From: Anaerolineaceae bacterium
GTDB lineage: Bacteria > Chloroflexota > Anaerolineae > Anaerolineales > Anaerolineaceae
DNA length: 64,000 nt
Assembly: GCA_016841445.1 (NCBI GenBank)
Contig: JAENZD010000001.1
Location: 248,001 to 312,000 of the forward strand
Direction of reading: 5' to 3'
Part shown: positions 1,034 to 25,530 of the stretch, piece after piece
How positions within the stretch are numbered: position 1 is the first letter of the stretch
Layout: each line of letters starts with the position of its first letter
Made by a program: the position numbers and the translations under genes
The notes under the pieces: model-generated
The model's database searches: none
The model's input: the letters and a program-made list of their open reading frames with translations, nothing else
What the model was told of the DNA's origin: nothing

Positions 1034-1993
1034 ATGAAATTTGACGATCCTGAATTCATGACTGAAATTTACGATTTTGAATCATTGCCAAAATTCGACA
1101 TTGAACGATCCTGCCTCACGATTGGGAACTTTGATGGGGTTCATCTCGGTCATCAGGCTTTGATCAAGACATTGATCAATAAAGCCCACCTGGTTGGTGC
1201 CGCTGTAGTTGTTGTGACATTCTATCCCAACCCGGTAAACTTTTTCAAACCCGATCTCAATTCGTTTTATTTATCCACACCCCAGGAAAAGGAAGCATTC
1301 CTGGTTGATTTTGGTGTTGATAAGGTTGTTACGTTTGCTTTTGATCATCACTTTGCAAACCTGACAGCGAGGGAATTCCTGGTTGGGATGAAGGAAAAGC
1401 TTGGATTGCAGTTGTTGGTGGTTGGACCTGATTTTGCGCTCGGGAAAAACCGCCAGGGCACCATCCCGGTTATCCAATCAATCGGCGAGGAGATAGGATT
1501 CAGCCTTGAACTAATGGAGCCTGTGAGTCTGGGAGAGGAGGAGATTTCTTCAACCAGGGTCCGCGCTCTTCTTGAAGCAGGCGATGTTGTTGGGGCTGCA
1601 AAATTATTAGGACGTTCATACGAAATTTCAGGTATTGTTGAACACGGATCGGACCGGGGTGCCAGCATTGGGCTGCCGACTGCGAATATTAAACACTGGA
1701 AGAAAAAGAAATTACCAGCGGTAGGCGTTTATGCCACAGAGACCATTTATAAAGGGGAATTACATCTGGGTATCACTAATGTTGGTTACAGGCCAACATT
1801 TGAAGACCAGGATGAACCCAATGTGGAGACCTACATCCTCGATTTTAACAGGGATATTTATGGAAACAGGCTAACATTGAAATTCATTGAAAAGCTTCGG
1901 GATGAAGAAAAATTTACGAGCCTTGAATCCTTTCTTGAACAAATTGAGCGTGATAAAACCGCAGCACGAGAGATATTTCGCAATGAAAGATAG
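1034..1993 (+). CDS. ribF: Bifunctional riboflavin kinase / FAD synthetase RibF
   Basis: Phosphorylates riboflavin to FMN, then adenylates FMN to FAD. The N-terminal nucleotidyltransferase domain has the ATP-binding motif GNFDGVHLGH at about residues 31-40. The C-terminal flavokinase domain starts near residue 190 with GLPTANI around 210. Length (319 aa) is standard. Start is uncertain: ATG 1034 is taken, a GTG lies directly before it at 1031 and another ATG at 1058, and no clear Shine-Dalgarno separates them. The stop overlaps the next gene by 11 bases, so translation of the ThyX-like protein is probably coupled; both enzymes concern flavin, since ThyX uses FAD. Confidence 0.95.
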   Translation: MKFDDPEFMTEIYDFESLPKFDIERSCLTIGNFDGVHLGHQALIKTLINKAHLVGAAVVVVTFYPNPVNFFKPDLNSFYLSTPQEKEAFLVDFGVDKVVTFAFDHHFANLTAREFLVGMKEKLGLQLLVVGPDFALGKNRQGTIPVIQSIGEEIGFSLELMEPVSLGEEEISSTRVRALLEAGDVVGAAKLLGRSYEISGIVEHGSDRGASIGLPTANIKHWKKKKLPAVGVYATETIYKGELHLGITNVGYRPTFEDQDEPNVETYILDFNRDIYGNRLTLKFIEKLRDEEKFTSLESFLEQIERDKTAAREIFRNER

Positions 1994-3416
1994 AAGAATC
2001 TACCTTTTAGATCCAAAACAGCTAAGCCCCGAGACGATCGCGGTAACGTTTGCTAAAACTTCGCGATCCCCAAAACCGTTTGATGAAATCGCAGATGAGC
2101 TGACGGATGCCCGGTCTGCTGAATTTCATGAAAAATGGGTTGTGGGTTATGGTCATTCTTCTGTAGCTGAACATGCTGTACTCCATATTGCACTTGAAAA
2201 TGTGTCCCGTCTGGCGATTGAAACCATCGAAGGAAATCGCCTGGCTTCGTATACTGAAAAATCAACTCGTTACCAGCAATGGGATGATGACGCTTTTTAT
2301 CATCCGAAGGAGCTTAAAGCGCAAAATCTGCAAGAAAGATTCAATGACACTTGCTGTCTTCTGTTTAACACTTATCAAACCTGTATTAAGAAGGTCAGCA
2401 AGCACTTTAATGAAGTACTGTTTCCATCTAATGGTGAGTCTGAAAAAGCTTTTGGACGACGGGTGAAAACTGAATCCGTTGATGTATGCCGTTTTTTGCT
2501 GCCAGCCGCGTCACTGGCAAATGTCGGAGTGACGATCAATGCTCGTTCCCTTGAATATGCGATTTGTAAAATGCTTAGCTCCCCGCTCAATGAAGTACGC
2601 GAAATCGGTGAAGAACTTTGCAGCGTGGCAAAACTTGAAACACCAACCCTGATCAAATACGCGGCTTGTAATGAGTACCTGGTCTCAACCCGTGAGAGGA
2701 TGAGTGTCTATTCTCAAAAAATTGCTTCGCAAAATGACGGTGCCTGGTTCAACCTGGTTTCTTATGATCCTGAGGGGGAAGACCATGTCCTGGCAGCGCT
2801 TCTTTTCCGGTTTGGTTCGCACCTTAGTTTTGAGGCTTGCATGGCACACATCAGGCATATGGATTGTGATGAAAAAAAGAAATTGGTTGATGAGATCATC
2901 GCGACTCGCGGCGTTCATGACCAGCCATTGCGTGAATTGGAATATGCGCATTTGACATTTGAAATTGTGATGGATCAGGGCGCGTATTTTGAATTTAAAC
3001 GCCACCGTATGATGACCCAAACAGCCCAACCCCTGCTGGCTGACTTAGGTTATGCCGTACCAAAGGCAATCGTTGAGGCGGGTGTCGATGCTGAATATGC
3101 AACAGCAATGGAATCAGCCGCAGCGCTCTACAGGGAGGTGGCGAATTTCAACCCGGATGCAGCAGGTTATATCATCCCCAATGGATTCAATCGAAGGGTC
3201 TTGTTCAGTATGAACCTGCGTGAAGCATTTAATTTTGTCCGCTTGCGGTCCGCAAAAAATGCTCATTTTTCCATTCAGCGGATTTCCCAGCGGATTGCCG
3301 ATACAATCCAGGAAGTTTACCCGTTATTGGGGCAGTATTTGGAAATAGCTGATCAGAAAACCTGGCAGGATATCGAAAGCCAGTATTTTTCAGTCACACA
3401 GCAGGACACACGATAA
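1983..3416 (+). CDS. thyX: Tandem-duplicated ThyX-like flavin-dependent thymidylate synthase
   Basis: ThyX enzymes methylate dUMP to dTMP with methylenetetrahydrofolate, FAD and NADPH. This 477-residue protein is about twice the usual length and holds two ThyX-like halves. Half 1 has GHSSVAEHA at 58-66 and, at 84-97, GNRLASYTEKSTRY, which keeps the R..S..E.S.RY part of the ThyX motif but has GNR where RHR is normal. Half 2 has an intact RHR at about 340 but loses the following Ser/Glu/Ser (RHRMMTQTAQP). Each half also ends in the NAR/LR helix type (NARSLEYAI; LREAFNFVRLRSAKNAHFSI). The 1983 start is chosen because family similarity begins there; the open frame extends upstream to 1887 inside ribF. 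Activity as a synthase is likely but not certain. Confidence 0.85.
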   Translation: MKDRRIYLLDPKQLSPETIAVTFAKTSRSPKPFDEIADELTDARSAEFHEKWVVGYGHSSVAEHAVLHIALENVSRLAIETIEGNRLASYTEKSTRYQQWDDDAFYHPKELKAQNLQERFNDTCCLLFNTYQTCIKKVSKHFNEVLFPSNGESEKAFGRRVKTESVDVCRFLLPAASLANVGVTINARSLEYAICKMLSSPLNEVREIGEELCSVAKLETPTLIKYAACNEYLVSTRERMSVYSQKIASQNDGAWFNLVSYDPEGEDHVLAALLFRFGSHLSFEACMAHIRHMDCDEKKKLVDEIIATRGVHDQPLRELEYAHLTFEIVMDQGAYFEFKRHRMMTQTAQPLLADLGYAVPKAIVEAGVDAEYATAMESAAALYREVANFNPDAAGYIIPNGFNRRVLFSMNLREAFNFVRLRSAKNAHFSIQRISQRIADTIQEVYPLLGQYLEIADQKTWQDIESQYFSVTQQDTR

Positions 3417-13016: not shown

Positions 13017-13245
13017 ATCGGTCTTTATTTTATCCAATAACCATGAATTGTCAACCTTATGATAGAAAGAAGCCTGGAAACCTTGACTGCCTGATCAATA
13101 CAGCCATGATAGTAGAAGATTTATGATGAGAATCATAGGCAAAAATTATTTCAGTTTAAATTGAATCATAAAGCATAATTTCGTAATTTTAGGTAAAATA
13201 ATGGTATCGGGATTAATGACGAAAATTTAGTGGATGGGAGTGAAG

Positions 13246-14562
13246 GTGAATAAGAAATTCCTAAACTATCTGTGGATACTTATCTACATCTTGATGGTTT
13301 TTATGCCCCTTGTACTGTTAATGATTTTGCCCAAGCCAGACGGCCGGGAGTTTCTCAGGGAAGTATCGGTGGCATTGGGATTCCTGGGTATGGCACTGCT
13401 GGGTCTTCAGACCATACCAACATCCAGGTTGAAATTTTTCACCAAAGCTTTTCCTATGGATACCATCTATACCATCCATCACGGGCTGTCAGTTTTCACA
13501 TTCCTGGTTGTTTTAGCCCATCCAATTTTGCTATTTATTAATAACCCTGAAACGCTGCGTCTTCTTAACCTGATTGATGCACCTTGGCGTGCCAGGGCTG
13601 GTGTCGTTGCTGTTTTGGGTATGCTACTGCTGGTGGTTACTTCAGTTTGGCGGGAATTGATGAAGGTCAAATATGATATCTGGCGCTGGATCCACGATGT
13701 TTTATCATTTCTTGCGATTGGCTTAGCGCTGTATCACATGTTCAAAGTCAACCATTATATGGCCTTAACCTATCAAAGGGTCATCTGGTTGGTATTAACC
13801 GGCATCTGGCTGGCCACCATCCTTTATATTAGGGTGGTAAAGCCGATCATTATGATCAAGAAGCCTTATAAAGTTGTGAAGGTCATTAAGGAAAGGGGTC
13901 AGAGCTGGTCACTGTACCTCAAACCTGATGGCCATGATGGGTTGGAATTTGAAGCCGGTCAATTTGCGTGGATAACCACTGAATCACCCTTCATCTTCAG
14001 AGAGAATCCCTTTTCCTTTTCGAACAGCTCTGACCATGAAGGAAATGTGATCGCATTCACGATCAAAGAACTGGGTGATTTCACCAGTAAAATTGGTGGA
14101 TTTGAGGAGGGGAAGACAGTCTTCGTAGACGGTCCTTATGGCACCTTCAGCATGGACGAACATGCGTGCAAAAAGATGGCATTTATCGCCGGCGGTATTG
14201 GGTCTGCCCCTGTGATGAGTATGCTGCGAACCCTCGCAGATCGGAAAGACAAGAAAGAAACATATTTCTTCTACGGTAATGCGACCTGGGAATCAATTAT
14301 TTTCCGGGAAGAGCTGGAAGCGTTGGAGAAGAATTTGAACCTTAAACTGGTTCATGTCCTTGAACGTCCCCATGAAGAGTGGCAGGGTGAAAAAGGATTT
14401 ATTACGGCTGATATACTTGGACGATATCTTCCAAAAGATTACCAGGATTTCACTTATTTCTTATGCGGACCGCTCCCAATGATTAATGCTGTTGAAGGGG
14501 CTTTGCATACATTGCATATCCCTCCAGGGCAAGTTTATTCTGAACAATACGAAATGGCGTGA
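13246..14562 (+). CDS. Ferric-reductase-like transmembrane flavocytochrome
   Basis: Membrane electron-transfer protein of the ferric reductase/NADPH oxidase superfamily: about six N-terminal membrane helices with paired His (HHGLSVFTFLVVLAHP; WIHDVLSF and ALYHMFKVNHYM) that should bind two hemes b. A cytosolic FAD domain follows (AGQFAWITTES; ENPFSFSNSS), then an NAD(P) domain (AGGIGSAPVMSML; YFLCGPLPMI). It should pass electrons from NAD(P)H across the membrane. GTG 13246 is chosen for GGGAG at 13236-13240; ATG 13234 is in frame but lacks an SD. A 34-residue membrane peptide follows at once, and a pentaheme cytochrome converges from the other strand. Confidence 0.88.
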   Translation: MNKKFLNYLWILIYILMVFMPLVLLMILPKPDGREFLREVSVALGFLGMALLGLQTIPTSRLKFFTKAFPMDTIYTIHHGLSVFTFLVVLAHPILLFINNPETLRLLNLIDAPWRARAGVVAVLGMLLLVVTSVWRELMKVKYDIWRWIHDVLSFLAIGLALYHMFKVNHYMALTYQRVIWLVLTGIWLATILYIRVVKPIIMIKKPYKVVKVIKERGQSWSLYLKPDGHDGLEFEAGQFAWITTESPFIFRENPFSFSNSSDHEGNVIAFTIKELGDFTSKIGGFEEGKTVFVDGPYGTFSMDEHACKKMAFIAGGIGSAPVMSMLRTLADRKDKKETYFFYGNATWESIIFREELEALEKNLNLKLVHVLERPHEEWQGEKGFITADILGRYLPKDYQDFTYFLCGPLPMINAVEGALHTLHIPPGQVYSEQYEMA

Positions 14563-14769: not shown

Positions 14770-15903
14770 TCATTCAGGCCGGAGTAGACCTGACATTTCA
14801 ACATCAACGACCTCTGATAAATCATCCAGGGTGTCGTATATTAATTGGATCAAATATCGTGCGTTATGGGTAAAGCCACCAGGATCTTCGAGCACCAGAT
14901 GGTAATTATAGGTCGCTTTGACTAACCTGGGTGTCCAACTTCCATAACTGTTTGCGCGTTCGGTCTCTCCTTCATCAGCTTCTCCGTTGCCATTGGTGTC
15001 AATGAACCAGTAGGGATTTTGAAATGCATAAACGATAGACTGATCGGAGACCTCTTCGGCATAAGCCTGGATTGCACTATACAACATGTCGTGCATCTTT
15101 GTCAATTCTCCATAAACACCTTCCGCGGTATCGCCATCACCGTCAAAGTCCAGCGTGTCCTCTGTACGTATGTCACGTAAATCACCATAATCACTGACTT
15201 CAGAATGGCAGGCAGCACATTCATCGGGATTGATCAGGAGTGAGTGCGGGTTATGGCAGTCTGTACACAATTGGTAGTCTTCAACATGGTTGAAAAAGCC
15301 ACTGTAGCTCAACTCAGGGTATTCATATCCAGTGATGACATCGGTCCCGTAACGAACTGCTGCGGCAATTTTGTAGTGGATATTGATAAACCCCAACTCT
15401 TCATTTACCTCATCCTCCGGAAGATTTACTGTACTTTTTTCAACGTCTAACCCGGAGCGCCTACCCTGGTGACACTCAGCACAAATCGCACTTTCTTCCA
15501 AGGTATCGATGGTTTCACCAGAAGGAAAATAGGCGGATGTTTTAACATGGGCTGAATCATTGTGGCAAACAAAACAACTGACCACTGAACCAGTATTGGC
15601 TTCATTATCGGTCGATGTGCCCTGGTTGGGTTCTGTTTCATCTTCCCCCAGGTAATCAAGGAAGCCATAAGCACTATGGCATTTTGCGCAAGATGTGGAT
15701 ATTACTGGCGGGTCATCTTCGTCCCAGTGAACAAAAGACTCTGCCTCAGAATCTGCGTGGGCTGAACCTGACCATTGTTCACTGATGGCCTCAACCGTTT
15801 CAGGCCGTGGTTCCGGGGGTAGAATGAATTGTCCTAAAAGGATCGCTGCCAGCCCTCCCAACAAAAAGAAAATTATGATCAGGGGCCACACCAATTTCTT
15901 CAT
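14770..15903 (-). CDS. Membrane-anchored pentaheme c-type cytochrome
   Basis: Extracytoplasmic electron carrier of 377 residues. It begins with a membrane anchor (WPLIIIFFLLGGLAAILLGQ, about 5-25). Five CxxCH heme sites follow: CAKCH, CFVCH, CAECH, CTDCH and CAACH, about residues 72-230. The heme-poor C-terminal third carries Asp-rich loops, DFDGDGDTAEG and DTNGNGEADEGE; the second fits a DxNxNxxxDxxE calcium loop. Its electron partner may be the convergent flavocytochrome. The terminal acceptor is not visible. Confidence 0.9.
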   Translation of the reverse strand: MKKLVWPLIIIFFLLGGLAAILLGQFILPPEPRPETVEAISEQWSGSAHADSEAESFVHWDEDDPPVISTSCAKCHSAYGFLDYLGEDETEPNQGTSTDNEANTGSVVSCFVCHNDSAHVKTSAYFPSGETIDTLEESAICAECHQGRRSGLDVEKSTVNLPEDEVNEELGFINIHYKIAAAVRYGTDVITGYEYPELSYSGFFNHVEDYQLCTDCHNPHSLLINPDECAACHSEVSDYGDLRDIRTEDTLDFDGDGDTAEGVYGELTKMHDMLYSAIQAYAEEVSDQSIVYAFQNPYWFIDTNGNGEADEGETERANSYGSWTPRLVKATYNYHLVLEDPGGFTHNARYLIQLIYDTLDDLSEVVDVEMSGLLRPE

Positions 15904-16044: not shown

Positions 16045-17172
16045 ATGAAGAAACCAGTCGTTTTGTTATTATTAATTGTATCTATTTTTTTACCATCATG
16101 TGTGGCTTCCCCTGCGAATGACATTGATCACAGCAGTGTGCCAGAGGTTAACAAATCTGAAACCCCTTTACCTGCAACCGCGACACCTTCAAGGACATTA
16201 ATCCCAAGCAACACACCCTCTCCGACCACAACAAATACACAACTTCCGCCCACAGTTACAGCTACCCCTTATGATTTGACCTATTTTACTAACTTGGACC
16301 TGTACCCAGGTGTGATCCCGGTCAATTATATTGAGGTTACTTGTTCTTATCTTGAGAATCGCTGGGGTGACGGAAAGAGCAGTCCTGGCACGATAGTTGT
16401 ACCCATAATGTTCCACTCGGTTGCCAAACCGGGCAGAGAGATTACGGACACGACCACGATCAGCATGGCTTATTTTGAGTATTTTATGGAATTTGCCATA
16501 GAGCAAGGATTCTCAACAGTTACAGTGGATGAATTGATTGGGTTTTTAGACTCCAACCAAAAAATACCGGAACTTTCGATGATTTTAATCCTGGACGACC
16601 GGCGGCCTGGTGTAACCGAGCTTTTTATGCCTTATTTGGAAGAAAACGACTGGACTTTAACCTTGGCCTGGCCAACCACAGATGCCACCGGGGATGCTTT
16701 ATGGGATCGAATGGAAGGATTAGCCTCATCCGGTCGTCTGGATGTTCAATCGCATGGGCATGACCATATTTATATCCAGGATTACACAGCCCAGGAAGAA
16801 ATTGAAGAGGAGATCTATCAGCCGATCGAAGTTATCCAGGAGCATTTCAATACCACACCACAAGCGATCATATGGCCTGGCGGAAATTTCACCCAAACTT
16901 CGGTGGACATGGCTTCTGAGGCAGGCTTTGAAGTTGGATTTACAGTCTTCTCAAGGGGACCGTTGATGTTTAATTGGATCCCTCAAGGCGAAAAAGAACA
17001 GGCTCTCGGAGCACCCTTACTGCTCCTGCCGAGATACTGGTCAACGGCTGCCGATGTTGCTTTGATCGAAGCAATCAAGATCAATGAAGCAGCCAAAAAG
17101 GATGCCGCCGCAGTTAAAACAGATGAAATATATTACTATGAAACCTACTGTCAACCGCTGGAAAACAATTAA
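16045..17172 (+). CDS. Polysaccharide deacetylase-family lipoprotein
   Basis: Secreted lipoprotein, 375 residues: lipobox LPSC near residue 19, a Thr/Pro linker to about 75, then a NodB-type catalytic domain. The NodB signatures are VPIMFHSVAKPG, the Asp pair ILDDRRPG (about 180) and the His motif SHGHDHI (about 235), with IWPGGNF later. These enzymes remove N-acetyl groups from peptidoglycan or other amino-sugar polymers. ATG 16045 is favoured by AAGG six bases upstream; GTG 16039 is in frame. Its end overlaps the next gene by 35 bases, so it should be in one transcript with the LysM-M23 proteins. Confidence 0.85.
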   Translation: MKKPVVLLLLIVSIFLPSCVASPANDIDHSSVPEVNKSETPLPATATPSRTLIPSNTPSPTTTNTQLPPTVTATPYDLTYFTNLDLYPGVIPVNYIEVTCSYLENRWGDGKSSPGTIVVPIMFHSVAKPGREITDTTTISMAYFEYFMEFAIEQGFSTVTVDELIGFLDSNQKIPELSMILILDDRRPGVTELFMPYLEENDWTLTLAWPTTDATGDALWDRMEGLASSGRLDVQSHGHDHIYIQDYTAQEEIEEEIYQPIEVIQEHFNTTPQAIIWPGGNFTQTSVDMASEAGFEVGFTVFSRGPLMFNWIPQGEKEQALGAPLLLLPRYWSTAADVALIEAIKINEAAKKDAAAVKTDEIYYYETYCQPLENN

Positions 17173-18694
17173 AATAATCTGCAAGCCCCTGGCAATCATG
17201 TCGATTGCCAGCGCTTTACTATCAGGCTGTTTCCGGCCGGATAGTGGTTTGCCTTTCTTTAAAGTATCAGGGCCTATCACTGAATCAACCAGCATATCCA
17301 ATCCAGAGGTCGCTGCAGAAAATAATAATCAGGGCGGTGGGAAAGCACAAATTCTCTTAACGCCGACCCCAAACGAGCCAATTGTCTTACCTACGCTTCG
17401 GACAGGCACTATCACGTATATTGTTCAGTCAGGTGACACCCTGCAAAAAATAGGCCAGCGTTATCAAGTCTCGGTTTCACAGATTATGGAAGTCAATGAA
17501 TTTGTAAACCCCAACCTGATTGAGATCGGTCAGGTCATCATTGTTCCACCGCCATCATTTGATAAGCAGGCTTCATCTTTTAAAATTATCCCGGATTCCG
17601 AACTGGTCAACAGCCCATCCAATGCAAGTTTTGATGTTAATCAATATGTCAGTGATTCGGGGGGGTACTTGGCGGATTATTCACAAGATATTGATGGGGC
17701 TGTCCTCTCGGGGGCGGAAATCGTGCAACGGGTAGCGGTGGAGTATTCCGTCAACCCGCGGCTGCTGCTGACAATGCTGGAATACCAGAGCCAATGGCTG
17801 TCTCTGGATAATCCTGAGGATAATACAGAAGTTTACCCGATGCGATATTATGACGTATGGCGAGAAGGATTGTATAACCAGCTCAGCTGGGCTGCCAACC
17901 TATTGAACGAAGGATATTACCTCTGGAAGATCAATGCCATCAATGTCTGGGTCTTATCTGACAGCAGTGTCGTCCAGGTGGAGCCCACCATCAACGCGGG
18001 CACAGCGGGTGTACTGAATTTGTTAAGATACCTGAAAACCGCCGAAAACTGGGATGAAGCGATTTCTCCTGATGGTGTTTATGCAACATACCAGGACCTC
18101 TTCGGTTATCCCTTCAGCGGTGCGGTTGAGCCGATGCTCCCGGGAAACCTGGTCCAGCCAGATCTGCAGTTACCTTTTGAAGAGGGTGATGAGTGGTCTT
18201 TTACCGGCGGTCCGCATGGTGGCTGGAATACAGGGTCCGCCTGGGCCGCCATCGATTTTGCCCCACCCGGTGAGGCTTTAGGTTGTTACCCCAGTGATGC
18301 CTGGGTGGCAGCATCTGCCCCGGGTGAGATTGTTTATTCTGATTATGGTGCTGTGATCCAGGATTTGGATGGAGACGGTATCTGGCAGACAGGTTGGTCG
18401 ATTCTTTACATGCATATTGATCCTGTAGACCGGGTCGAGGCTGGTACTTTCCTGGAAGCAGGGGACCGGATCGGACATCCTTCCTGTGAAGGCGGCTATT
18501 CTTCGGGCACCCATCTGCACATTGCCAGGCGGTATAATGGTGAGTGGATCTCAGCTGATGCAGAACTTCCCCTGGTGATGGATGGCTGGGTAACAGCAGG
18601 TTATGGGGTTGAATACGATGGTTATTTGATCAAAGGAGACCAAACTTTGGAGGCATGGGATGGGCGCTCGCCGCTCAACGCTATCAAGCGCTAG
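17138..18694 (+). CDS. LysM / lysozyme-like / M23 lipoprotein, tandem copy 1
   Basis: Envelope protein of 518 residues. Signal peptide with lipobox LSGC near residue 29; LysM at about 91-137 (YIVQSGDTLQKIGQRYQVS); a central helical domain starting EYSVNPRLLLTMLEYQSQWL near 203, similar in pattern to soluble lytic transglycosylases; and a C-terminal M23/LytM endopeptidase domain from about 355. M23 ligands are GGPH, AAIDFAP, YMHI and GTHLHIA. The first His and the Asp are separated by 12 residues, not the usual three. A DLDGDG loop sits inside the M23 domain. ATG 17138 is the first Met with a good signal peptide; the frame is open to 17084. It overlaps both neighbours by 35 bases. Confidence 0.85.
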   Translation: MKPTVNRWKTIKIICKPLAIMSIASALLSGCFRPDSGLPFFKVSGPITESTSISNPEVAAENNNQGGGKAQILLTPTPNEPIVLPTLRTGTITYIVQSGDTLQKIGQRYQVSVSQIMEVNEFVNPNLIEIGQVIIVPPPSFDKQASSFKIIPDSELVNSPSNASFDVNQYVSDSGGYLADYSQDIDGAVLSGAEIVQRVAVEYSVNPRLLLTMLEYQSQWLSLDNPEDNTEVYPMRYYDVWREGLYNQLSWAANLLNEGYYLWKINAINVWVLSDSSVVQVEPTINAGTAGVLNLLRYLKTAENWDEAISPDGVYATYQDLFGYPFSGAVEPMLPGNLVQPDLQLPFEEGDEWSFTGGPHGGWNTGSAWAAIDFAPPGEALGCYPSDAWVAASAPGEIVYSDYGAVIQDLDGDGIWQTGWSILYMHIDPVDRVEAGTFLEAGDRIGHPSCEGGYSSGTHLHIARRYNGEWISADAELPLVMDGWVTAGYGVEYDGYLIKGDQTLEAWDGRSPLNAIKR

Positions 18695-20300
18695 AAAGAG
18701 ATACTTCAAACGCCGCTTCAAGCGTTTGGGTGTTCTGCTGAGTGTTTCGTTGGTATTGGCAGTTGTGGTTTGCAGCAACCTGGTTCGTCCCGTCTTAGCT
18801 CCGGATAGCAGTCTGAGTGCTGCTTCTGTGTTCACACCTGTCCCCAGCCTTTCGCAAACAGCCAGTCCAGGGGGATCAACTCCTCCAACACAAACCGAAG
18901 AAGCCACAGAATCCATCGTCGAAACCCAGGTGGCAATTGAACCAACAACCATCCCGCTTCCCACGGAAGGACAAATCATCCCGCCAAGTGATGATTCGCA
19001 TCTTCTTTATTACACAATTGCCGGTGACAGCCTGGATGTGGTCAGCCTTCATTTTGGGGTGGATGTGCATGAAATCACTTCACCAGACCCGATTGCGAGA
19101 GACGGGTTGCTGACCCCCGGTCAATTGCTGATCATCCCGAACAACCTGGATGAAACCAGCTCTAGAAGCAAACTTCTCCCGGACAGCGAAGTCACTTTCT
19201 CTCCTTCAACCATTGATTTTGATATTGAAGCATTTGTCAACGCTGCCGGGGGATACCTTTCAACCTATACGGAAGATCTTGCCTCAACCGGCCGCACATC
19301 AGGTGCGGATATTATTGCCCGGGTTGCGCTCGAATACTCAGTGAACCCCAGGCTTTTGCTTGCTTTTCTTGAATATCAATCTGGTTGGGTTTACAGCAGC
19401 CCGCCAGCAGTACCGGATACCGAATATCCGATGGGCTATGTTGACAGCATGAAAAGTGGGCTGTATATGCAATCAGCGTGGTTTGCCAGCAGTGTGATGG
19501 AAGGTTATTACGGCTGGCGTGAAGGCCGGCGCTTGATCATCAATTTTGATGATGGTTCATTCCTGCGGTTGGCTCCTGACCTCAATGCAGGGACGGTTGG
19601 GTTGATGAATGGTTTTTCTTATCTGTATGATTTTGAGACATGGGCTAACCTTTTGTATGGCGAGAATAACTTCTTTGATTTTCACGAGTCAATGTTTGGC
19701 AGCGCTTGGATCAGGGCACAGGAAGTTGAACCGTTAATTCCAGCGGATACCCTGCAGCCGGAAATGATCTTGCCCTTTGAAATGAATGCATTGTGGGCTT
19801 TCACGGGTGGTCCCCACGCTGCCTGGAGTTCAGCTGATGTATGGGCTGCACTTGATTTTGCTCCCGCCAGCGGAGAAACTGGCTGCCATGAATCCAATGC
19901 GTGGGTTTTGGCATCTATTCCCGGTCTGGTTGTCAGGTCTGGGAATGGGGTGGTCGTGATTGATATGGATGGCGATGGTTATGAGCAGACCGGTTGGACA
20001 TTGGTATACCTGCATATCGCAACCAAGAATCGGATCCCAATAGGCACCTGGGTTGAAGTCGGGGATCGAATTGGTCATCCCTCCTGTGAAGGCGGGCGTT
20101 CAACAGGCACCCACGTTCATATGGCTCGCAGGTACAACGGTGAATGGGTACCTGCGGATGGTCCTTTGCCGTTCACATTGGACGGTTGGGTAGCAAAAGC
20201 CGGGGTATCTGCCTATAAAGGCTGGCTGATCAATGGTGAACGAATCCTGTATGCCAATACTTCCGCTACGATTGAAACACAGATCACCCGTGATAATTAG
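18660..20300 (+). CDS. LysM-like / lysozyme-like / M23 membrane protein, tandem copy 2
   Basis: Paralogue of the preceding gene, 546 residues. Instead of a lipobox it has a very basic N-terminus (RKRYFKRRFKRLG) and one hydrophobic segment, so it is a signal-anchor or cleaved-signal protein. The LysM (about 116-162, YYTIAGDSLDVVSLHFGVD) is degenerate. The central domain (EYSVNPRLLLAFLEYQSGWV, about 225) and M23 domain (GGPH, AALDFAP, YLHI, GTHVHMA, from 380) follow, with H-x12-D spacing and a DMDGDG loop as in copy 1. ATG 18660 lies inside the end of copy 1, suggesting translational coupling. Confidence 0.85.
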   Translation: MGARRSTLSSARKRYFKRRFKRLGVLLSVSLVLAVVVCSNLVRPVLAPDSSLSAASVFTPVPSLSQTASPGGSTPPTQTEEATESIVETQVAIEPTTIPLPTEGQIIPPSDDSHLLYYTIAGDSLDVVSLHFGVDVHEITSPDPIARDGLLTPGQLLIIPNNLDETSSRSKLLPDSEVTFSPSTIDFDIEAFVNAAGGYLSTYTEDLASTGRTSGADIIARVALEYSVNPRLLLAFLEYQSGWVYSSPPAVPDTEYPMGYVDSMKSGLYMQSAWFASSVMEGYYGWREGRRLIINFDDGSFLRLAPDLNAGTVGLMNGFSYLYDFETWANLLYGENNFFDFHESMFGSAWIRAQEVEPLIPADTLQPEMILPFEMNALWAFTGGPHAAWSSADVWAALDFAPASGETGCHESNAWVLASIPGLVVRSGNGVVVIDMDGDGYEQTGWTLVYLHIATKNRIPIGTWVEVGDRIGHPSCEGGRSTGTHVHMARRYNGEWVPADGPLPFTLDGWVAKAGVSAYKGWLINGERILYANTSATIETQITRDN

Positions 20301-20448
20301 TATATTAAAATAATTCAATTAATAGAATTAGTTGACGGATTTTCCTTGAAACTGGACTTTTTTGCACCTTCGGAGTATTCTTTATTCTCTGAATGTCCTT
20401 TTAATGTTATTAACAGATTACCTTCTCTCAAAAAATTTCCCGGAAAAA

Positions 20449-21915
20449 ATGATTCGTAAATACCTGTTTCCTTTGATCTTGATCACTATTCTCTTGGCGG
20501 CATGTTCTCCCACAATGCAGCCTACGATGATCTTGCCCGATTCTATACAGCCCACCAACACGCCGATCACTCCTGAGATAACACCATTTCCCACCCGACC
20601 CGCTTTTGAACCGGGCGTATTGGTTGAATACACTGCACAATCCGGCGATACGCTGCCAGCCCTTGCGGTCCGGTTCAATACCTCTGTTGAGGAAATCAGG
20701 AACGCGAATCCTAATATTCCTCAAGATGCCACAACCATGCCGCCTGGTATGCCGATGCAAATGCCAATCTATTATCGCCCCCTTTGGGGTAACCCATACC
20801 AAATGTTGCCGGATGCTGCTTTTATCAACGGCCCGGCTGCATCGGGTTTTGACACGGGGGCTTATCTGAAAGCACAACCAGGCTGGTTAAGCAGCTATTC
20901 CACCTGGGCTTTCAGCGGCACCCGAAGTGCTGGAGAGATGATCGATTATGTCGCTTTCCAGTATTCGATCAGCCCTAAACTGCTGATCGCCCTGCTGGAA
21001 TACCAGGGCGGGGGCTGTTCACTGCCTGACCTTGATCAAATGCTTGAAAAAAATATTCTCGGTTTAGAATCCAGTTACTGGACAGGGGTTTACCTTCAAT
21101 TGTCTTATGCGGCGAATATTTTAAATGACGGTTACTACCGTTGGCGCGATGGTGAATTGATTGAATTTGAACTTCTGGATGGCAGCCTGGTGAGGCCGGA
21201 TCCATGGCAAAATGCCGGCTCGGTAGCGCTGCAGTTTTTCTTTGCAAAGGTATTATCGCCGCTTGAATTTCAGTATGCCATCGGATCTGACGGTTTCGCA
21301 AAAGTTTACCAGGATCTATTTGAAGATCCGTGGACATCTGAACCGCTCATAAGCGGTTCATTGGTGCAGCCCGAAATGCAGCTGCCCTATTCCAATGATA
21401 TCGGTTGGGCATTTACCGGCGGTCCGCACACAGGCTGGGGCAGCATGGCGCCATTGGCAGCGTTGGATTTTGCCCCTCCATCAGATATCACCGGCTGCTA
21501 CCCTTCGTCGTTGCCCGTCACAGCAGTTGCTGATGGGGTGGTTGTGCGTGATGGCGACGGTCTCCTGGTGTTGGACCTGGATGGTGATGGGAATGAACGT
21601 ACAGGTTGGGTTGTATTCTATCTACATATTGCGAAGGATGGACGGGTTCCAGTTGGAACAGTTGTAAATGCCGGTGATCCTTTGGGATTTCCTTCCTGTG
21701 AAGGTGGACGCTCCACCGGCACTCATATCCATATTGCCCGAAAGTATAACGGTGAATGGATGACGGCTGATGGTGTGATCCCATTTGTGCTTTCAGGCTG
21801 GACTCCTGTCAGGGGAGAAGAACCTTATAAAGGCTGGTTGGTGAAAGATGATATGATGGTGTTGGCAAACACCAATCCTGATAACCGCAGCACTATTCCA
21901 CTGGATTTACCCTAA
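20449..21915 (+). CDS. LysM / lysozyme-like / M23 lipoprotein, tandem copy 3
   Basis: Third paralogue, 488 residues. ATG 20449 gives a proper lipoprotein signal (MIRKYLFPLILITILLAAC); an upstream in-frame TTG at 20362 would bury it. LysM at about 60-105 (YTAQSGDTLPALAVRFNTS), central domain from about 173 (QYSISPKLLIALLEYQGGGC, the most divergent copy) and M23 domain from about 321 (GGPH, AALDFAP, YLHI, GTHIHIA) with the same H-x12-D spacing and DLDGDG loop. A 148-base gap separates it from copy 2, and a strong bidirectional terminator follows. Confidence 0.85.
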   Translation: MIRKYLFPLILITILLAACSPTMQPTMILPDSIQPTNTPITPEITPFPTRPAFEPGVLVEYTAQSGDTLPALAVRFNTSVEEIRNANPNIPQDATTMPPGMPMQMPIYYRPLWGNPYQMLPDAAFINGPAASGFDTGAYLKAQPGWLSSYSTWAFSGTRSAGEMIDYVAFQYSISPKLLIALLEYQGGGCSLPDLDQMLEKNILGLESSYWTGVYLQLSYAANILNDGYYRWRDGELIEFELLDGSLVRPDPWQNAGSVALQFFFAKVLSPLEFQYAIGSDGFAKVYQDLFEDPWTSEPLISGSLVQPEMQLPYSNDIGWAFTGGPHTGWGSMAPLAALDFAPPSDITGCYPSSLPVTAVADGVVVRDGDGLLVLDLDGDGNERTGWVVFYLHIAKDGRVPVGTVVNAGDPLGFPSCEGGRSTGTHIHIARKYNGEWMTADGVIPFVLSGWTPVRGEEPYKGWLVKDDMMVLANTNPDNRSTIPLDLP

Positions 21916-21976: not shown

Positions 21977-22011
21977 AAAAAGCAGGATCCATTGATCAGG
22001 ATCCTGCTTTT
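21977..22011. terminator. Bidirectional intrinsic terminator
   Basis: GCAGGATCC (21982-21990) pairs with GGATCCTGC (21999-22007) around ATTGATCA, flanked by an A-run on the left and T-run on the right. It serves the convergent M23 genes ending at 21915 (+) and 22066 (-). Confidence 0.9.
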
Positions 22012-22065: not shown

Positions 22066-23262
22066 TTAATATAAGAAGTTCCAGGGATTGACCGGGTAAC
22101 CCTCTAAGCGCAATTCAAAATGCAGGTGGGGGCCGGTGGAATTGCCCGTGCTGCCCATGGAGGCGATCAAATCACCCTTCTGGACGTTGGATCCACAAGG
22201 GAGCAAAGTGCCGTCCATCATGTGGGCGTAAAAGGTTTGCCATCCGCCGTCATGATCAATGACGATCAGGTTCCCATAACCCCGATCAGACCATCCGGAG
22301 TAGACGATCACACCGGAATCAGCAGCGTAGATTGGGCTGCCAAAATCGCCATCAAAGTCAAGACCGTTATGGGTTGGGGGTGTGTAGTCGTACCCTGAGA
22401 GCCAGGTCGCGGTTGTTGGCCATGTGAAACTGCCTGTACCCACGTTGCCGTAGATGATACCGCCGCAAGCGCCAGGACCAAGATAGGAATTACCGGATGC
22501 CGGGGCATCCCGTGCAACCACCCATGTGACGGTTGGCCGGGTACCCCCCGGAACAATCAGCATCGTTCCTGGTGTGATGTTGGGGTTGGCATAGTTGCCA
22601 ATCGTTTCTGGGTTGAGGTTGTTTCCTGGGTAATTTACAATGGCGTCGGGTTCAACACCATAAAATTCTGAGACACCGTTCAATCCCTCCCCTTCTGACC
22701 ACTGGTGATAGACACCATCGACCGGCAAAATAAACAATTCCAACCCGACGGTCAGACCATCCGGTGTGTCTCCAAGGATATAACGGTTCGACCATAAAAC
22801 GGTCTCCGGTTTGAGGCCAAATTTCTCACCAATACCAAAAATGGTATCACCCAGTTCTACCACGTAAGTCGTGACAACATCACGGTCTTCAGGGGTCGGC
22901 ATACTGGTCACATGAACTTCAGGCAGCCTGACGACCCCGCCCGACTGCCCATCTGTTGAGAAAACCGGTGTGGCAACCCCCTCTGGGAGGGCGACAGCAG
23001 TTTCGGTGGGGACAACTGTTGGTTCAGGAGATGCAGCAAAGCCATTGGTGATCAATGAGCCGATGCCCCAAACCATCAGCACGATGACGGCAAACAGGAC
23101 AGCGAACACCCCAATCCGCAATATTAATTGTTTCTTATTGGGTTTGTCTTCTGAAGGTGTGTCTTTAGGACGAGGTTGATTGATTATTTCCTCATCGGCG
23201 GCTTTGCTCTGCAAGAGAGCTTGCCCTTCGTTAATATCAGTAATCTGTTCTTTTTCAGTCAT
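22066..23262 (-). CDS. Bitopic LysM-M23 peptidoglycan endopeptidase
   Basis: 398 residues: a 48-residue acidic cytoplasmic tail, one membrane helix at about 49-72, a linker, a LysM at about 130-175 (YVVELGDTIFGIGEKFG), a second LysM-like segment (about 186-235), and a canonical M23 domain from about 270. The zinc and catalytic residues are standard: HNGLDFDG (HxxxD), YAHM and GPHLHFEL (HxH). Unlike the three proteins converging on it, it has no lysozyme-like domain, no His-Asp insertion and no DxDGDG loop. It should cut peptide cross-links outside the membrane. It follows the M1 peptidase gene by 103 bases. Confidence 0.92.
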   Translation of the reverse strand: MTEKEQITDINEGQALLQSKAADEEIINQPRPKDTPSEDKPNKKQLILRIGVFAVLFAVIVLMVWGIGSLITNGFAASPEPTVVPTETAVALPEGVATPVFSTDGQSGGVVRLPEVHVTSMPTPEDRDVVTTYVVELGDTIFGIGEKFGLKPETVLWSNRYILGDTPDGLTVGLELFILPVDGVYHQWSEGEGLNGVSEFYGVEPDAIVNYPGNNLNPETIGNYANPNITPGTMLIVPGGTRPTVTWVVARDAPASGNSYLGPGACGGIIYGNVGTGSFTWPTTATWLSGYDYTPPTHNGLDFDGDFGSPIYAADSGVIVYSGWSDRGYGNLIVIDHDGGWQTFYAHMMDGTLLPCGSNVQKGDLIASMGSTGNSTGPHLHFELRLEGYPVNPWNFLY

Positions 23263-25064: not shown

Positions 25065-25484
25065 TTATTCTTCCTCTTCAATAACAATTTTATGGGTGAT
25101 CTCAGCTGTCTTCTCCAACATTGCTTGAGCGGGGCAGTATTTCGTTTCCGAGAGTTCAACCGCGCGCTCAACAGCGTCCCTGTCAAGATTCTTCCCCTTA
25201 AGACGGTATTCCAGCACGATTTTCGTGAACACTTTAGGGTGTTCAGCTGCCCGTTCAATAGCCGTTGAAACCTCGAACTCAGTGACATCCTGGCGCTTTT
25301 TCTTTAATATGGAGATCACATCCATGGCCGTGCATCCGGCTAAACCAACAGCAAACAACTGCAAGGGACGGAATCCCATCCCGTGACCGCCGACTTCTTT
25401 CCTCGCATCCAGTGGGATCAGGAAGCCGTCTTCTGCAGTCCCAGTAAACGCCATATCTCCTGTCCATACTACTTTACTCTTCAT
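25065..25484 (-). CDS. OsmC/Ohr-family protein
   Basis: 139 residues from ATG 25484, chosen because AAGGG lies a few bases upstream; the frame is open to 25517. The two redox cysteines of the family are present: LAGCTAMDVISIL (about 54-66) and KYCPAQAML (about 115-123). OsmC/Ohr proteins reduce organic hydroperoxides in the cytoplasm. It lies 46 bases behind the zinc-ribbon gene and may belong to the same transcript as the ECF sigma/anti-sigma pair. Confidence 0.9.
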   Translation of the reverse strand: MKSKVVWTGDMAFTGTAEDGFLIPLDARKEVGGHGMGFRPLQLFAVGLAGCTAMDVISILKKKRQDVTEFEVSTAIERAAEHPKVFTKIVLEYRLKGKNLDRDAVERAVELSETKYCPAQAMLEKTAEITHKIVIEEEE

Positions 25485-25530
25485 TTGATACCCTTTCCGA
25501 CCTCCACCGGAGGTCATTAAATCTAATTTA

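Follow-up and report, generated by a model that had tools for sequence, protein, structure and literature searches.

The window analysed here (the whole stretch of 64,000 nucleotides) carries three paralogous genes, hereafter copies 1 to 3, whose arrangement is conserved throughout the bacterial order to which it belongs. We propose, with a probability of about 0.6, that they encode three non-redundant, membrane-anchored, zinc-dependent cross-bridge endopeptidases of the LasA (M23A) type, which would serve the cell's own wall and grip glycan with a lysozyme-like domain. The locus is broader than the original prediction described, being an order-wide trio, which suggests three separate jobs in wall building. 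The envelope of the Chloroflexota is disputed: they stain Gram-negative yet are regarded as single-membrane cells (PMC13319060). Wall enzymes that have stayed a trio from about the time of the order's ancestor would provide a handle on the growth and division of these often filamentous cells.

An ordered trio of paralogues

Reading of the open reading frames and their translations placed a NodB-type lipoprotein gene followed by three LysM/M23 paralogues at 16045-21915 on the + strand (Table 1), in agreement with the original prediction both in the coordinates and in the two overlaps of 35 bases, one between the NodB gene and copy 1 and the other between copies 1 and 2. The latter was seen again in 12 of 79 three-copy loci, and intergenic gaps measured at most 100 bases in 70/79 and 63/79 loci at the two copy junctions. 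Identity to copy 1 is 40% for copy 2 and 37% for copy 3. Since copy 3 is followed by a terminator-like palindrome and no such element turned up in the one longer gap, between copies 2 and 3 (20300-20449), a single transcript across the NodB gene and the three copies is likely.

Table 1. Coordinates of the array, its predicted domains and its downstream neighbour in the window.
Feature	Position	Strand	Remarks
NodB/CE4-type polysaccharide deacetylase lipoprotein	16045-17172	+	Pfam PF01522, 54.6 bits
Copy 1: lipoprotein, LysM, predicted lysozyme-like and LasA-type M23 domains, 518 residues	17138-18694	+	
Copy 2: arginine-rich signal anchor, diverged LysM, predicted lysozyme-like and LasA-type M23 domains, 546 residues	18660-20300	+	
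Copy 3: lipoprotein, LysM, predicted lysozyme-like and LasA-type M23 domains, 488 residues	20449-21915	+	
LysM domain, copy 1, residues 94-137	17417-17548	+	Pfam LysM, 57.7 bits
Predicted lysozyme-like domain, copy 1, about residues 147-324	17576-18109	+	E215 at 17780, Q217 at 17786
Predicted LasA-type M23 domain, copy 1, residues 339-507	18152-18658	+	Structure match and conserved residues
M23 residues, copy 1: H360, D373, H426, H459, H461	18215, 18254, 18413, 18512, 18518		
M23 residues, copy 2: H386, D399, H452, H485, H487	19815, 19854, 20013, 20112, 20118		
LysM domain, copy 3	20629-20766	+	
Predicted lysozyme-like domain, copy 3	20788-21372	+	
M23 residues, copy 3: H327, D340, H393, H426, H428	21427, 21466, 21625, 21724, 21730		
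Terminator-like palindrome in the interval separating copy 3 from the convergent gene	21978-22011		13-pair stem, T tail; consensus match only
Ordinary (M23B-type) M23 protein, weak LysM match, convergent	22066-23262	-	Pfam M23, 107.7 bits; synteny

The distribution of the family was surveyed in 400 genomes of the phylum, comprising 37 from the order of the window, 24 from other orders of its class and 339 from the rest of the phylum. At least three copies were present in all 37 genomes of the order; matches occurred in 15/24 genomes of the other orders, mostly as one copy, and only distant ones were obtained in the rest of the phylum (10/339 genomes). The array is therefore not the peculiarity of one strain that the original prediction had allowed for. 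Exactly three tandem copies were found in 79 of 93 loci, several of the remaining loci being cut by contig ends. Within the genus of the window the family was present in 16/16 genomes, most of them having three or more copies in tandem. In a FastTree phylogeny of 263 proteins, positional copies fell into their own clade in 78/78, 78/78 and 76/78 cases; the two exceptions, together with the extra members of four-copy arrays, joined the copy-2 group. IQ-TREE supported copy 2 (100/98), copy 3 (100/99) and a sister relationship between these two (100/99), and placed two single-copy proteins beside copy 1. Neither a constraint keeping all copies together (p-AU 0.30) nor one making copy 1 a single clade (p-AU 0.39) was rejected. 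By sequence comparison, copies 1, 2 and 3 thus form three orthologous groups kept in the same order across the window's order, and a single ancestral gene would have been triplicated at about the ancestor of that order. Both trees rule out a recent local duplication, so that the synteny and phylogeny searches proposed with the original prediction point to a conserved array and an old duplication. The window's genome has a fourth paralogue on another contig (G000:C5:75578-76951; loci L003 and L131), which falls in the copy-2 group and neighbours murI, the glutamate racemase gene; most genomes of the genus likewise have additional copies outside the array.

Predicted domains and membrane anchoring

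The three copies score 28.9-32.3 bits against Pfam M23, barely above the cut-off of 28.7, and an M23 domain is common to all of them as originally proposed. Each contains H-x12-D, HxH and a histidine 33 residues ahead of HxH; H(x)12D is the published LasA motif (PMC9662197). The AlphaFold (AF2) model of copy 1, obtained with 110 sequences, reached a pLDDT of 94.5 and a pTM of 0.92. Its M23 domain found its best structure matches in LasA (3it5; VIA Z 18.9), pseudoalterin (18.5) and beta-lytic protease (17.8), the next fold relative after this group reaching only Z 13.3. We assign the M23 domains of the three copies, from motif and predicted fold, to peptidase M23A (LasA/beta-lytic protease type), a point beyond the original reading. 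Peptidases of this type cleave peptide-bridge bonds, often after Gly. An ordinary LytM-type M23 was ruled out for the three copies by the H-x12-D spacing and the structure Z values. Because the metal and catalytic residues are kept across the three groups (copy 1, 78/78 orthologues; copy 2, 77-78/78; copy 3, 78/78), all three copies should be enzymes; the loss of zinc contemplated in the original prediction is contradicted by ligands intact in every group.

The middle of each protein had been described simply as a central helical domain. This shared domain is indeed present; its probable lysozyme-like nature had been missed. Folded alone (AF2), that of copy 1 reached a pLDDT of 95.6, and nearly all of the 50 structure matches listed belonged to the lysozyme superfamily (Z 5.7-8.6), among them the GH73 glucosaminidases LytB and AtlE, goose-type lysozymes, MltF, MltC, MltE and Slt. 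Foldseek E-values for the domain were weak, the best being 0.15. Alignment by hhalign with a Chloroflexota SLT profile gave P 2e-4 over 28 columns, as against 0.06 or worse for reversed or shuffled controls. No Pfam model matched the middle domains of the window copies, and a scan of 120 middle domains returned stray weak matches only, the most relevant being to Glucosaminidase in two members (E 0.034). We take the domain to have a putative lysozyme-like fold, closest to GH73, goose lysozyme and MltF. The domain make-up is new to the family libraries and papers searched; the chemistry is of a known kind. In distant relatives within the phylum (L184-L190) the same lysozyme-like domain accompanies M23, and the M23 is of the ordinary type in some of them, so that the M23 half seems to differ between lineages.

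The N-terminal LysM domains had been predicted to differ in quality. Copy 1 (Table 1) and copy 3 (30.8 bits) exceed the Pfam LysM cut-off (PF01476, 20.9 bits) and the window's copy 2 gave no Pfam LysM match, but the domain was recognised at E 0.01 in 28/36 orthologues of copy 2, compared with 34/36 for copy 1 and 36/36 for copy 3, and is diverged there rather than lost. Conservation of the LysM is highest in copy 3, a hint that this domain may have a ligand or partner of its own. Lipoboxes were read in copy 1 (LSGC), copy 3 (LAAC) and the NodB protein (LPSC); copy 2 has an arginine-rich start, then a hydrophobic stretch, and no lipobox was seen at its N-terminus. The original distinction, lipoboxes in the first and third copies against a basic anchor in the second, thus holds in the window but not beyond the genus, a simple pattern count finding a lipobox in about 55 of 79 copy-2 proteins. 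A signal anchor devoid of a lipobox in copy 2 is a trait of the window's genus; the anchoring differences arose late, at the level of the genus, and cannot explain why three copies were kept.

Proposed role and alternative explanations

In the mechanism that we propose, the proteins would be held at the membrane by their lipid or signal anchor, the N-terminal LysM and the lysozyme-like groove would bind the wall, with the lysozyme-like domain most likely gripping a glycan strand, and the C-terminal M23 zinc domain would then cut a nearby peptide cross-bridge. The fixed gene order may have been kept as the copies act on different own-wall material, sites or growth stages, for instance elongation, septum or pole. 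From this fixed order and the one-to-one orthology across the order we infer three separate housekeeping tasks; the copies might differ in timing only, not in substrate. Wall remodelling by copies adapted to different places or partners, as originally suggested, gains from the three ordered orthologous groups and their intact zinc sites, but loses anchoring as a cause. A wall with a peptide bridge, the target of LasA-type enzymes, would fit the presence in the window's genome of murE and of two FemAB-type bridge-peptide genes lying side by side (FemAB at G000:C5:50667-52721).

An unlikely alternative is that the proteins are bifunctional, the lysozyme-like domain cutting glycan through E215 while M23 cuts peptides. 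The predicted fold would allow it, E215 is kept as Glu in 72, 64 and 75 of 78 orthologues of copies 1, 2 and 3, the acid is likewise Glu in every single-copy relative that was read and Glu or Asp in more remote ones from other classes, and Q248 is kept in 233/234 proteins of the three groups. The SLT catalytic Glu, however, aligns to position 217 of copy 1, in a register that is weak as it covers 28 columns only, and by this profile alignment the SLT/GH23 catalytic Glu (ES position) is absent from all three window copies, each of which has Q there. Among 78 copy-1 orthologues this position is Q in 51, R in 23 and never E; in the 78 of copy 3 it is mostly Q, E not being among the top residues; and Glu is missing at 217 from the distant relatives too. 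In copy 2 the residue is E or Q in most proteins, and the 31/78 with E speak for the bifunctional reading. Holding glycan rather than cutting it is the safer of the two readings of this predicted domain. We consider it quite unlikely that the middle domain is a lysozyme-superfamily family not described before, its catalytic acid shifted two residues along the helix, in which case each protein would cut both glycan and peptide and the three ordered paralogues would constitute a dedicated wall-growth machine of the order.

Against an own-wall role it counts that known LasA-type enzymes are described as lysins acting on other cells or elastin. Cell-bound LasA-like lysins directed at other bacteria, whether for food or in attack, would agree with the targets of LasA, pseudoalterin and beta-lytic protease, namely elastin or foreign walls (PMC9662197; PMC9783410), and LysM would bind a foreign wall equally. 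The proteins nevertheless bear a lipobox or membrane anchor in place of free secretion, and each orthologue is single in nearly every genome of the order, the pattern of housekeeping rather than of a weapon; we therefore give this reading little credence. Activators of the EnvC/NlpD type have broken zinc sites. A role for some of the copies in activating other hydrolases, without enzymatic action of their own, is suggested by their tandem M23 and LysM lipoproteins, a layout like that of NlpD, but is highly improbable with all metal ligands intact in the three groups, which rules out degenerate EnvC/NlpD-type activators. The original prediction also joined deacetylation and peptide cutting into one obligate set, in keeping with the apparent operon of overlapping genes in the genus. 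The NodB protein scores well above the Polysacc_deac_1 cut-off of 23.1 bits (Table 1), and its NodB/CE4 metal and catalytic residues D184-D185, H237 and H241, as well as H124, are all five kept in 31/31 neighbouring orthologues, so the deacetylase is probably active. Yet its gene adjoins the array in only 28 of the 67 loci with enough upstream sequence, leaving 39 without it, it was detected in only 18/61 genomes of the window's order, and even within the genus of the window it was not found upstream of the array at two loci. The best NCBIfam match is moreover PgaB, an exopolysaccharide deacetylase, far below the model cut-off. An obligate set is accordingly very unlikely and unsupported as a rule; the deacetylase looks like an optional, lineage-level addition and not a core part of the array. 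The stress originally laid on deacetylation and anchoring fails beyond the genus and near relatives. Under the preferred reading of three cross-bridge endopeptidases, the deacetylase is probably co-expressed with the copies in this bacterial family and may tune glycan for them.

Known systems and genome context

No described system with this layout was found in the open-access papers searched, as had been anticipated. The copies share with LasA, beta-lytic protease and pseudoalterin (M23A) the H-x12-D, HxH and CEGG-S-G-H-x-H motifs and the predicted fold (Z 17.8-18.9), but the known members are described as secreted lysins whereas the present proteins are anchored, fused to LysM and lysozyme-like domains and encoded as three ordered paralogues. 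A LasA-type M23, so far known from lysins, would here have an apparent housekeeping role, fused to a lysozyme-like domain that was invisible to the family libraries searched. NlpD, MepM and DipM likewise combine LysM with M23, and NlpD also has a lipid anchor; their M23 is of the ordinary LytM type, they have no lysozyme-like middle, and NlpD has no zinc site. GH73 enzymes (LytB, AtlE), goose lysozyme and SLT/MltF come nearest to the fold predicted for the middle domain (Z 5.7-8.6); this domain has no Pfam match, and in copies 1 and 3 its catalytic Glu is out of place. Phage phi29 gp13, among the structure matches of the whole copy 1 model, also has a lysozyme-fold domain followed by M23, but this protein of the phage tail has an H(x)7D motif (PMC9662197) and neither LysM nor lipid anchor. 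The NodB protein shares family PF01522 and the metal motif with NodB/CE4 deacetylases (PgaB, IcaB, PdaB), but its place beside the M23 genes is confined to part of the order.

Downstream of the array, the convergent M23B-type gene is conserved in the genus and is not one of the three paralogues. An OsmC-like gene (25065-25517, - strand), also convergent with the array, was found shortly downstream in 38 loci across the order. On the other side, a gene for a multihaem c-type cytochrome-like protein with five CxxCH motifs (14770-15903, - strand) adjoins a ferric-reductase-like gene (13234-14562), and the place of both beside the array is kept across the genus. Farther away in the window, 1887-3416 on the + strand encodes a ThyX-like protein, about 500 residues long, which read by eye has two apparent thymidylate synthase-like halves.
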